49,808 nucleotides of DNA from contig PTJY01000008.1 of NCBI GenBank assembly GCA_002937505.1, forward strand, positions 1 through 49,808, written 5' to 3'. Origin of the DNA: Alphaproteobacteria bacterium MarineAlpha12_Bin1. GTDB lineage: Bacteria; Pseudomonadota; Alphaproteobacteria; UBA6615. The translations under genes and the position numbers were made by a program. Below the pieces are notes generated by a model. The model saw only the letters and a list, made by a program, of their open reading frames with translations, made no database searches and was not told the DNA's origin. Below, piece after piece: positions 28,878 to 32,636 of the stretch (its first letter is position 1; every line of letters begins with the position of its first letter).

Positions 28878-29705
28878 ATGCCAGTAATTGTTAGAGGGTT
28901 GGAATTAGAGTCGAGAGAATTAAATTTGGGAGTTACCAGCCAATCCATTTTATCGTCTGATGTTACTGGGTCTAATAATGTTTCACTAGACCTTATTACC
29001 TTAAACTCAAACGCTAAATATTCTCTTAGTTTAGAAAAGGATTCTATAGGCTGGTTACAAGTATTACAGGGGTCAGGTGTTTTTGATGGATATGATATAA
29101 GATTGTCCTCTAATGAAGTAGTTTCTTTACCTTTGGGTTTTCGGGGAGACTTTACGGCTAGTTCGGACCAGACGAAACTGCTTTTAGCATTTGTACCGGA
29201 GGCTGAACGCTTTGATAAAAATATAGATTCAATTCCTACTGGCTTGAAAACAACAGACTGGTCAAACGAACCGGTTTTAAAATCAGAGCATGATGAAAGA
29301 ACAAGAATCTATTTGGCCACCCGAACTCTGTCAGGGACGGAAGCTTATCGATGTGAAATGATTCGATATCCCATCGGGACCTCTGCCCCTGACCATCACC
29401 ATGAAGGAGCTGAGCATTTTCAATATGTTCTCAAAGGGACAGGGACTGCAATGCTTGATGGCAAACCTTGTGACTTAATAAAGGGTGATGCACTTTATAA
29501 TTTTGATCATGAAGTACATTCATTCCGCAATAATGGATCAGAAGAGTTTATTTTTGTTGAGTTTTTTGTGCCGGGAGGATGCAAAACAGTATGGGCGCCA
29601 AATGCCAATGTGTGCGCGTGGCTTCCTACAGGAAAAGACATTCATGGCCGTCCGCCATCCCGAGATATCGCATATCATGTTCATGGAGAAGATAAAGACA
29701 TTTGA
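28878..29705 (+). CDS. Bicupin protein
   Basis: A 275-residue protein made of two cupin barrels. The N-terminal barrel (to about residue 110) lacks metal-binding histidines. The C-terminal one has a rich site, H163-H164-H165-E166 with H170 in P-D-H-H-H-E-G-A-E-H and H201/H204 in the second motif. Proteins of this type include ureidoglycine aminohydrolase-like and dioxygenase-like enzymes, which would fit beside an amidase. The ATG at 28878 is chosen because GGAGGT at 28868-28873 lies just upstream; an earlier in-frame start would overlap the amidase. It ends 64 bases before the selenoprotein gene. Confidence 0.8.
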   Translation: MPVIVRGLELESRELNLGVTSQSILSSDVTGSNNVSLDLITLNSNAKYSLSLEKDSIGWLQVLQGSGVFDGYDIRLSSNEVVSLPLGFRGDFTASSDQTKLLLAFVPEAERFDKNIDSIPTGLKTTDWSNEPVLKSEHDERTRIYLATRTLSGTEAYRCEMIRYPIGTSAPDHHHEGAEHFQYVLKGTGTAMLDGKPCDLIKGDALYNFDHEVHSFRNNGSEEFIFVEFFVPGGCKTVWAPNANVCAWLPTGKDIHGRPPSRDIAYHVHGEDKDI

Positions 29706-29769
29706 TAATTTCATAAAAGTCATATAATTAGATTGTTTTATAACAACGAATAGCTTTTTAGGAGCACTA

Positions 29770-30240
29770 ATGACCGATAAACTTGGTATAGGGGATACCT
29801 TTCCAGATCTGCAACTGAACCTTGTGGATGGTCAAGACCTGACTATTCCATCTGATCTAAATTCACCCTACAAAGTTATACTTTTTTATAGAGGTCATTG
29901 GTGACCATATTGTCGCCGTCAGTTGGACGGTTTTTCTGGTATTAAAAAACAGTTGGATGATATAGGTGTTCAGATAGTAGCTGCTAGTGTTGATCCCATT
30001 GAAAAGGCTCAAGAGGTTGCTGATTTGCTTAATTTTCCTATAGGGTTTGGTGTTACTAGGGAGATGGCTGATACTATAGGATCTTGGTGGGAAGAACGTC
30101 GTCAAATTATTCAGCCTTCAGAGTTTATTATTGGGGAAGGCAATAAGGTTATAGCCTCGAGCTATAGTGATGGCCCCTTGGGTCGGATGGATGCTGCAGA
30201 CATAATCAAGCTAATCACTTTCTTTGAAAGCAAAAAATAA
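29770..30240 (+). CDS. Peroxiredoxin-like (AhpC/TSA fold) selenoprotein, UGA at codon 45
   Basis: A 156-residue thioredoxin-fold protein reading through an in-frame TGA at 29902-29904. The N-terminal half (G-D-T-F-P-D-L-Q-L at residues 8-16, V-I-L-F-Y-R-G-H-W at 36-44) and C-terminal half lie in one frame on either side, so this is not a frameshift. The TGA falls where Prx-like relatives have the first cysteine of W-C-P-Y-C, giving U45-P-Y-C48. TGA ends several intact neighbouring genes, so it is not a reassigned tryptophan codon. The ATG at 29770 follows AGGAG. It would reduce peroxides or disulfides. Standard calling would report only the C-terminal piece from about 29923. The alternatives are a nonsense mutation or a base error. 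Confidence 0.87.
29902..29931 (+). promoter_or_regulatory. Putative bacterial SECIS element
   Basis: Starting 11 bases after the TGA (29902-29904) is a stem CCGTC (29916-29920) / GACGG (29926-29930) with loop AGTTG, extendable by a G:U pair (29915:29931). Known bacterial SECIS elements have a short apical stem at this distance and a G among the first loop bases; as I recall, E. coli fdhF also has 11 bases between UGA and its upper stem. Here G is the second loop base. The stem is GC-rich while its surroundings are AT-rich. SelB binding is inferred. Confidence 0.75.
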
Positions 30241-30299
30241 ATTATTAAACCCTTAAAAGTCTAATTTTTGTGGCGTTTAAAGTAAAAAATTATAAATAC

Positions 30300-32636
30300 T
30301 TATTTTTCAGCATCTTTGATGGCTTTCCAAATCTTTTCAGAAGTGGCTGGCATGTCTAGATGACGAATCCCCAGTGGAAGTAAAGCATTACAAACAGCGT
30401 TCATCACTGCTGGCAAGGCGCCAACTGTTCCTGCTTCTCCAGCGCCTTTGAAGCCAAATGGATTATTAGTTGAGGGCACTTCATGGGACAGCACTTCCAG
30501 GGATGGAAAATCCATTGCGCGAGGCATAGTATAATCCATAAATGAACCAGTCAGTAATTGGCCATTTTGGGAATCATAAACGACTTTTTCCATCAAAGCT
30601 TGACCCGCTCCCTGGGCTACTCCGCCATGGACTTGTCCTTTAACTAGCATAGGATTTAGCATCCTGCCGACGTCATCAACGACAACGTACTTAACTAATT
30701 CAACAACGCCAGTTTCTCGCTCAATTTCTACTTCACAGACATGGCAACCATTGGGAAATGTGGCCCCTGGAGGTATTGTTATAGCTGTTTCATTTAGACC
30801 AATTTCTATATTTTTGGGCAACATATCTAATCTATATGAAGCTCTTGCAACATCAATTAAATGCAATGCTCGATCCGTTCCATCTACAATAAATGATCCA
30901 TCCAGAAAACTTATATCTTCTTCGGCAGTTTCTAATAAGTGTGCAGCAATTTTCGAGGCTTTCTTAATAATTTTGTCTGCGGCACTTTTCACAGCCGCCC
31001 CGCCAACGGCTATAGATCTAGATCCAAATGTGCCTTTGCCATGGGGAACTATATCTGTGTCGCCATAGATGAGATTAATTTGATTAAATTCCAACCCTAA
31101 GATTTCCGTTATAATTTGTCTAAATGCTGTTTCGTGCCCTTGTCCATGTGAATGAGTGCCTAACGCTAGCGTAAGTCCTCCATCACTTTCAAAACGAATT
31201 GAAGCACTTTCTTCCATCGGTTTTGGATGTGGTCCGCCAGCTATCTCTATAACAGAGGCGAAACCGATCCCAAGTAACTTTCCTTTCGATGCTGATGTGG
31301 ATTTTCGTTTAGCTATATTTTTATAATCAGCAGCCTCTATAGCTTTGTCCATCACTGTCTCAAACTCACCAGTATCATAAGTAAAAACAAAACCAGTATT
31401 ATAAGGTAAGCTATCTTTAGAGATAATGTTTCTTCTTCTTAAATCTATAGGGTCGTATCCAATATCGGTTGCTGCGACTTCAATCAATCTTTCTAATACA
31501 TATGACGCTTCTGGCCTACCTGCTCCCCTATAGGGCGCAGTTGGGCTAGTATGAGTATATACTCCGCTTACCTCTGCAAATATGTGTGGGGTTGTATATA
31601 CACCTGATAATCCACCCAAGTTATTAGTTGGGGAATGAGGACCAAAGTAGTTCAGGTAACCGCCTAAATTAGCTTTTGTACTAACCTTTAGCCCCATAAA
31701 CCTTCCATCTTTATCTAGGGCTAAGCTTGCTTTGGTGACGTTATCTCTAGCATGAAAGTCTGAAGCTAATGATTCAGTGCGTGTGGCAATCCAGCGAACA
31801 GGGCGGCCCACTCTTTTTGAAGCCCAAAGCACCAAGGCATGTTCTGAAAAAGGGAGGCCTCGCATACCAAATCCTCCTCCCATATCTGGTGATATTACTT
31901 TTAAGTGTGATTCAGGTATTTTTAATATATTACTAGCTAACTCGGTCCTTACTCGATGAGGAGACTGCATTCCAGCGTATAAAGTATAGCGTTCTGTCCC
32001 TCTGTCATAAAATCCAATAGCCCCTCTTGGTTCCATAGTGTTAGCTGAAACACGACTAATAATTAGGTCTAGAGAAATAATATGACTAGCTTCAGAGAAT
32101 GCTTTATCTACTTCAAATTCATTGCCAATTTTGTAATAGAAGCTTTCGTTATTTTCTAAACTATTCCATACCTGGGCTGCTCCTGTAGTTAATGCAGCGC
32201 CTGTGTCTGTTATAGATTGCAATATTTCATATTCAACTTCTATATTCTCAGCTGCGTCCATTGCATTATTTAAAGTTTCTGCTACTACAACGGCAATTGG
32301 GGCTCCGACCATGTTTATTGAGTCACTTGCAAGGACAGGAAAATCTGTTTCGAGCATTGAAGATCCATTTCGCTGTTTACGTTTGACGCTACAAGTAAAT
32401 TTCCCCAAATTATCTGAAGCAGCATCATTGGCGGTTAGGACCTCTAGTACGCCTGCCATAGATAACGATTTTGTAGTATCAATACTTACTAATTTTGCTG
32501 CCGCATGTGGCGATCTCACTACAAACAGATGCGCTGCACCGGCAACTAACCTATCATCAGTATAATTACCAAATCCTTGCAATAGCTTTCGATCTTCAAC
32601 TCTTGGAACTGGTTGTCCGATCCCATATTCTCGCAT
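30300..32636 (-). CDS. Xanthine dehydrogenase/CoxL-type molybdopterin-binding subunit
   Basis: A 778-residue large subunit of the molybdenum hydroxylase family. It starts with G-Q-P-V-P-R-V-E-D-R-K-L-L near residues 7-19. The molybdenum-site loop reads P-Y-R-G-A-G-R at 368-374, the 'form II' type rather than the A-Y-x-C-S-F-R of true CO dehydrogenase. D-M-G-G-G-F-G-M-R at residues 251-259 is a cofactor loop, and the catalytic glutamate is E734 in G-A-G-E-A-G. It would hydroxylate a heterocycle or aldehyde with water. The FAD and 2Fe-2S subunit genes that normally accompany it are absent from this window. It is convergent with the selenoprotein gene. Confidence 0.92.
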   Translation of the reverse strand: MREYGIGQPVPRVEDRKLLQGFGNYTDDRLVAGAAHLFVVRSPHAAAKLVSIDTTKSLSMAGVLEVLTANDAASDNLGKFTCSVKRKQRNGSSMLETDFPVLASDSINMVGAPIAVVVAETLNNAMDAAENIEVEYEILQSITDTGAALTTGAAQVWNSLENNESFYYKIGNEFEVDKAFSEASHIISLDLIISRVSANTMEPRGAIGFYDRGTERYTLYAGMQSPHRVRTELASNILKIPESHLKVISPDMGGGFGMRGLPFSEHALVLWASKRVGRPVRWIATRTESLASDFHARDNVTKASLALDKDGRFMGLKVSTKANLGGYLNYFGPHSPTNNLGGLSGVYTTPHIFAEVSGVYTHTSPTAPYRGAGRPEASYVLERLIEVAATDIGYDPIDLRRRNIISKDSLPYNTGFVFTYDTGEFETVMDKAIEAADYKNIAKRKSTSASKGKLLGIGFASVIEIAGGPHPKPMEESASIRFESDGGLTLALGTHSHGQGHETAFRQIITEILGLEFNQINLIYGDTDIVPHGKGTFGSRSIAVGGAAVKSAADKIIKKASKIAAHLLETAEEDISFLDGSFIVDGTDRALHLIDVARASYRLDMLPKNIEIGLNETAITIPPGATFPNGCHVCEVEIERETGVVELVKYVVVDDVGRMLNPMLVKGQVHGGVAQGAGQALMEKVVYDSQNGQLLTGSFMDYTMPRAMDFPSLEVLSHEVPSTNNPFGFKGAGEAGTVGALPAVMNAVCNALLPLGIRHLDMPATSEKIWKAIKDAEK

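Follow-up and report, generated by a model that had tools for sequence, protein, structure and literature searches.

Classical peroxiredoxins are recognised by a PxxxT/SxxC motif together with a catalytic Arg. A selenocysteine (Sec)-containing protein termed Prx-like was described in the Sargasso Sea selenoproteome in 2005 (PMC1088965). Table 2 of the GOS selenoproteome of 2008 lists Prx-like 1, with 225 sequences, the pfam00578 domain and a UxxC motif (PMC2398784), and the entries for this protein in reviews of 2022 and 2026 give a Prx-like thiol:disulfide oxidoreductase of PF00578 with UxxC or UxxU (PMC9312934, PMC13188914). We read these three names, Prx-like, Prx-like 1 and Prx-like thiol:disulfide oxidoreductase, as designating one family; further papers were also drawn on (PMC5029168, PMC9402790, PMC8124441). 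The gene described here belongs to this published Prx-like UxxC kind, to which it is likened through the published descriptions rather than the published sequences (22 or 225). It lies in a 49,808-nucleotide stretch of DNA (hereafter the window) from Alphaproteobacteria bacterium MarineAlpha12_Bin1, and it shows both features of Prx-like 1, i.e., the pfam00578 domain and UxxC in place of TxxU.

The gene occupies positions 29770..30240 of the window on the + strand, as supported by its translation, an AhpC-TSA match, homologues with the same TGA and a structure model. An earlier interpretation made from the DNA letters alone (the sequence-only reading) had described this frame as open save for a TGA at codon 45, and translation bore this out: with TGA read as U, the 156-residue product contains a single U, at codon 45 (29902..29904, +), and the terminal stop is TAA. 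The active site of the read-through protein is W-U-P-Y-C, in which Cys48 (29911..29913, +) is the second residue of U-x-x-C. An AGGAG at 29760..29764 (+), read directly from the sequence 5' of the ATG at 29770, is a probable ribosome binding site; no match to a promoter consensus was found at 29600-30350, and this consensus says little for this organism. The Pfam AhpC-TSA match (E = 1.3e-19; 70.8 bits against a cut-off of 26) covers residues 7-128 and so extends to either side of the TGA. PF08534 also matches the read-through protein (41.7 bits), and no NCBIfam model reaches its own cut-off on it. The sole open reading frame of at least 60 amino acids listed in the frame of 29770 is one of 105 amino acids from TTG 29923, which suggests that standard annotation would truncate or split the gene. 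The upstream cupin gene, which runs from ATG 28878 (or TTG 28830) to 29705, has TGA as its stop; judging from this one neighbour, TGA is therefore still in use as a stop, in keeping with the standard code that had been proposed.

Homologues were compared in three overlapping sets (family, genome collection and class), whose counts are not additive. In the family, 17 of 24 genomes contain a homologue, and 16 of the 17 homologues carry exactly one TGA, which alignment places in the same column as codon 45 in every case; the remaining homologue (30% identity) has no TGA and has Cys in the aligned column. An order-wide search amounted to the same 24 genomes. Scanning the genome collection yielded 47 loci, comprising 34 with TGA, 12 with Cys and one fragment without the site; one of the two scan patterns included the Cys codon (LFYRGHWC), so the Cys:Sec ratio among these loci is no census. 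The class (385 genomes) gave 24 matches: 21 carrying a single TGA (46-99% identity, counting the window's own gene) and three without TGA (30-34% identity). The TGA codon was read directly in each of the 16 TGA loci from outside the family. Codon 45 had been taken for a Cys/Sec position, and homologues indeed carry TGA or Cys in this column. The same codon recurs in related genomes, in homologues with 46-88% identity, and does so more often than chance would allow (16/17 family homologues; 34/46 collection loci that span the site); its presence in other genomes answers the worry that the TGA is a sequencing error.

The 34 TGA loci of the collection are labelled Alphaproteobacteria or relatives, except for one labelled plain Proteobacteria and three Burkholderiales. 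The 12 Cys loci comprise six Chloroflexota, two Gammaproteobacteria (L071 and L083, the latter Stagnimonas), and one each from Thermomicrobiales, Actinomycetota, Bacteroidota and another bacterium. We built a maximum-likelihood tree of 47 rows (the window, 34 Sec and 12 Cys), masking the site as X in Sec rows and omitting L078. The tree needs one Sec/Cys state change; a branch with 99/98 support separates the Sec rows from the others, and no Cys form lies inside the Sec clade; several Cys rows are long-branched and their order is unsure, and a single change gives no direction of gain or loss. The Burkholderiales-labelled loci (L053, L054 and L055) carry the same Sec gene inside this mostly alphaproteobacterial clade, which may reflect lateral transfer or mis-assigned bins. 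A search of 50,697 phage records gave one weak match (30.4% identity over 57% of the query), and a plasmid search gave 17 matching records, all below 60% identity (8 among the matches listed).

The sequence-only reading had pointed to selA, selB, selD and tRNA-Sec as genes to look for, and all four were found above their curated cut-offs in the window's genome, which comprises 12 contigs and 2.34 Mb (completeness 100). They lie on contig C5: selA at 169091-170452 (591.9 bits), selB at 170473-172347 (464.4 bits), tRNA-Sec at 175053-175144 (72.1 bits; anticodon TCA by ARAGORN) and selD at 176385-177290 (284.8 bits). Because the selB, selD and tRNA-Sec models also hit other genes weakly below their cut-offs, only matches above cut-off were counted. 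In the family, selA was above cut-off in 16/16 genomes with the TGA gene and in 4/7 genomes without a homologue. Across the class, where 56 of 385 genomes have selA above cut-off, it was present in 21/21 genomes with the TGA gene versus 35/364 others (Fisher 6e-20, with relatedness ignored), and in none of the three genomes whose homologue has no TGA.

Downstream of the UGA, a candidate bacterial SECIS hairpin (29915..29931, +) consists of a 6-bp stem (GCCGUC/GACGGU) closed by the loop AGUUG. The bacterial SECIS model given in the legend of Fig. 2 of PMC13188914 has an apical loop of 3-9 nt and a stem of 4-16 bp; the same source asks for a G in the first two loop positions, a distance of 16-37 nt from the UGA and an MFE of no more than -7.5. 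The hairpin agrees with this description, with a 5-nt loop, a G at loop position 2, 6 bp and a UGA-to-loop distance of 16 nt. The region has a folding energy of -9.2 over the 38 nt after the UGA and -12.4 over 61 nt, the latter not unusual in itself (z -0.82; 37/200 shuffles fold equally well). Together with the T-run that follows it, the window's hairpin also looks like a terminator.

Comparative evidence for the helix came from the alignment. Among 32 distinct sequences, 94.8% of stem cells are paired, against at most 59.9% for slid helices, and both-sided changes occur at two pairs in 14 cells (G-C to A-U in five sequences, U-A to A-U or G-U in nine). Three measures (paired cells, cells changed on both sides and covariation score) were not equalled in any of 500 shuffles; two others do not exceed shuffles, namely how many pairs show a both-sided change (286/500 shuffles as high) and how many pair types occur (479/500), and one inner pair is missing in 10/32 distinct sequences. 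RNAalifold, unprompted, recovered the same helix. Codon choice was compared in 34 genes, taken from the window and 33 Sec loci, with the incomplete L070 omitted. Codons 49 (CGC), 51 (CAG) and 52 (TTR) are fixed in all 34, at positions where 6, 2 and 6 codons are possible, and the spacer codons 46-48 vary at third positions in the same genes. Codons 46-54 are more conserved than the rest of the gene, a weak result (p = 0.034) since the spacer codons are included. When codons 46-58 were randomised synonymously using the codon usage of the same genes, the mean number of stem pairs was 4.21 of 6 (maximum 4.84) versus 5.69 observed, and none of 2000 randomisations reached the observed value. Cys forms have 0-4 of the six pairs (12 loci, 14 sites, two loci having a second copy). 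Of the 16 TGA loci from outside the family, 14 use CGC as codon 49 (L098 and L100 have another codon); ten have a sequence new to the alignment, of which eight form six pairs and two (L088 and L098) form five. The proposal of a Prx-like UxxC selenoprotein is thus supported by the machinery, the conserved TGA, the covarying SECIS and the co-occurrence with selA.

Sec decoding of UGA 45 is about as certain as sequence allows, and other accounts of the in-frame TGA fare poorly against it. A lone sequence with an in-frame TGA would look the same if the gene were a pseudogene, i.e., a Cys form interrupted by a nonsense mutation, but the same TGA in 16/17 family homologues, 34/46 collection loci with the site and 21/24 class matches, the conservation of the protein past the TGA and the constraint on synonymous sites make this extremely improbable. 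A sequencing error at a true TGT or TGC can be discounted to the same degree: our reasoning here is on assembly sequence rather than raw reads, yet TGA stands in 34 records and is accompanied by the hairpin, which is weaker or absent in Cys forms (0-4/6 pairs). Genome-wide reassignment of TGA to Trp or Cys has nothing in its favour besides the in-frame TGA itself and is the least credible of these accounts, given that the adjacent upstream gene stops at TGA, that tRNA-Sec and selA, selB and selD are present, and that the TGA is accompanied by a SECIS hairpin. It is very unlikely, if less so than the preceding accounts, that the hairpin is an intrinsic terminator by which the gene is attenuated rather than recoded. 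A scan did flag 29915-29931 plus the T-run as terminator-like; however, the five-T run occurs in the window and L038 only, the other 33 rows have at most four T (e.g., L048 and L049), and most rows run on as TTCGCA, TATGCA and similar strings yet keep the hairpin.

The protein model speaks to what the enzyme might do. AlphaFold2, run with Cys for Sec and 32 sequences, gave a mean pLDDT of 95.3 and a pTM of 0.91, and both model and structure comparison indicate a peroxiredoxin fold. The nearest solved structure is Bcp4 (3hjp; Foldseek E 1e-12, TM 0.84; VIA Z 20.7, rmsd 2.2 over 152 residues), followed by BcpB (5epf; VIA Z 20.0); the best PDB match by sequence is StoA, a thiol-disulfide oxidoreductase (9.5e-6). 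No variation is seen at columns 45 and 48 of the 32-sequence alignment A4 (all Cys, with Sec written as C), and Cys48, which the sequence-only reading had noted as kept, is invariant in alignment A1 as well. Pro116 (30115..30117, +) aligns with the Pro of the IPT stretch of StoA (3erw) and is replaced by Ala or Ser in 5/8 Cys homologues of A4, so any argument from this residue is limited to the Sec clade and does not extend to the wider family. When the protein was aligned with the genome's own two TxxU peroxiredoxins, their Thr, Sec, Pro and Arg columns were found to hold Sec45, C48, R41 and P116, respectively. The PxxxT/SxxC motif and catalytic Arg are accordingly absent from the gene, which has R41, U45, C48 and P116 where P, T, Sec and R would stand. 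Codon 45 therefore corresponds to the Thr of classical peroxiredoxins and not to their peroxidatic Cys, whose column is taken by C48, a point that goes beyond the sequence-only reading.

We favour, with a probability of roughly 80%, a peroxiredoxin-fold selenoprotein with Sec at UGA 45 that would act as a thioredoxin-like thiol/disulfide reductase or as a two-residue atypical peroxidase. SelA, SelB, tRNA-Sec and SelD would decode UGA 45 as Sec via the hairpin just downstream, a step for which the sequence provides support. The Sec45 selenolate would then be the nucleophile, and its target either a disulfide or an oxidant such as a hydroperoxide; attack by Cys48 would form an intramolecular Se-S bond, which thioredoxin or another dithiol would reduce. 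The protein would in that case be a reductase built on a peroxiredoxin scaffold rather than a classical peroxiredoxin with its peroxidatic residue in PxxxTxxC. The U-x-x-C plus Pro arrangement resembles that of thioredoxin-like reductases, and the presence of Sec in the Thr column and of R and P in the Pro and Arg columns suggests that thioredoxin-like UxxC chemistry is likelier than that of a classical peroxidase. A strict Sec-dependent peroxidase, in which Sec45 reacts with a hydroperoxide to give a selenenic acid that Cys48 resolves, is partly compatible with the favoured reading and deserves consideration as a possible but less probable alternative. The AhpC-TSA domain and the closest folds by PDB match, which are true peroxiredoxins (Bcp4 and BcpB), argue for it, whereas the lack of the PxxxT/SxxCp signature and of Arg in its column, and the location of position 45 in the Thr column, argue against it.

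In several relatives, the gene lies near the sel genes. The fetched flanks of the 34 Sec loci contain selA in nine and selD in six, 11 loci altogether, and tRNA-Sec is in the flank of 7/32 Sec loci scanned (L042 and L070 left out); many Sec loci are short, so these counts are lower bounds. The gene order in L041 and L046 is selA, selB, ..., a cupin-like gene, a small hydrophobic protein on the opposite strand, the Prx-like gene, a small cupin-like gene, ..., tRNA-Sec, selD and a PrdB-like gene, where selB (e.g., 4011-5921 in L046 and 3712-5634 in L041) and the cupin and hydrophobic reading frames near the gene were identified by eye. In L046, L047 and L053, the PrdB-like gene contains a single TGA, within a PVUPxC motif; in L041, it is split over two frames. 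The sel locus of the window's genome retains the cupin-like gene, the small protein, tRNA-Sec, selD and the PrdB-like gene, with no Prx-like gene, and the sole copy of the Prx-like UxxC gene in this genome is on contig C11. There, the genes 3' of it encode a Mo-dehydrogenase, pyruvate kinase, a transporter and PEP carboxykinase, and L038 and L048 share these genes; the cupin on the 5' side is adjacent to the gene in L038 and ~9 kb off in L048. These differing surroundings indicate that the gene has changed place between lineages. We also tested whether the window's upstream cupin is linked to the cupin of the sel locus, and found no support (best pair E 0.009, 28% over 65 columns).

In the sel locus of some relatives, the gene has selA/selB on one side and tRNA-Sec/selD on the other, with the PrdB-like gene, TGA-bearing in L046 and L047, a few kb away. 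A speculative and rather unlikely reading is that the protein is an enzyme with an obligate need for Sec and a role in selenium handling itself; it could be the dedicated reductant of the PrdB-like partner or of a selenium compound that feeds SelD. The lack of any Cys form in the Sec clade would be in keeping with a function that needs Sec outright, as opposed to one where Sec simply improves on Cys.

Other genes of this genome also carry in-frame TGA codons. AhpC-TSA gave ten matches, eight of them above cut-off, and three of the genes have one internal TGA: the gene at 29770-30240 and two probable Sec peroxiredoxins with the TGA in TPGU (TxxU), L106 (C10:30834-31217) and L107 (C4:11526-11888). 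One of these two passes the cut-off of the NCBIfam thioredoxin-dependent thiol peroxidase model and the other fails it. A possible hairpin of modest energy lies 3' of each of their TGA motifs. Beside selD, a PrdB/GrdB-like gene on contig C5 (L020:15432-16664, - strand) has one in-frame TGA, in a UxxC motif; its protein scores 118 bits with TIGR04483, below the cut-off of 300, and is above cut-off for PF07355. A formate-dehydrogenase-like gene (C6:310184-312265) has no in-frame stop and is below its family cut-off, and the genome yielded no Sec formate dehydrogenase belonging to that family.

Together, these data restore a gene that would be broken up in standard annotation; they also make a bacterial Sec case on several independent sequence-level lines, namely the machinery, the conserved TGA and the covarying SECIS, to which the lack of the hairpin in Cys homologues and the co-occurrence with selA can be added. 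In the open-access literature, we did not find the Sec-only clade, the SECIS covariation or the place at the sel locus in relatives in print, and found no paper that pairs the string UPYC with a selenoprotein. Profile likeness to other redox proteins is weak and far below cut-off for the SelL-related redox protein (NF040769; 21.8 bits, cut-off 120), ResA (25.1 bits, cut-off 170) and StoA (29 bits, cut-off 210), the last of which has a CxxC-type pair and the Pro column in common with the UxxC gene. The closest likeness is to the published Prx-like UxxC proteins, which, in the passages that describe them, have the same kind of domain, UxxC for TxxU, a bacterial SECIS and an origin in marine samples. 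As this kind is already known, the gain is a better-resolved member of it. The TxxU Sec peroxiredoxins (BCP/PrxQ type) share the domain family, the in-frame TGA and the genome with the UxxC gene, but their TGA encodes the peroxidatic residue of P-x-x-x-T-x-x-U and their Arg is kept, whereas in the UxxC gene the predicted Sec falls in the Thr column, the peroxidatic column is occupied by C48, and R and P stand in the P and R columns. Sec is thus predicted at two positions of one fold (TxxU and UxxC) within a single genome, which makes it possible to compare directly how Sec acts at the one and at the other.
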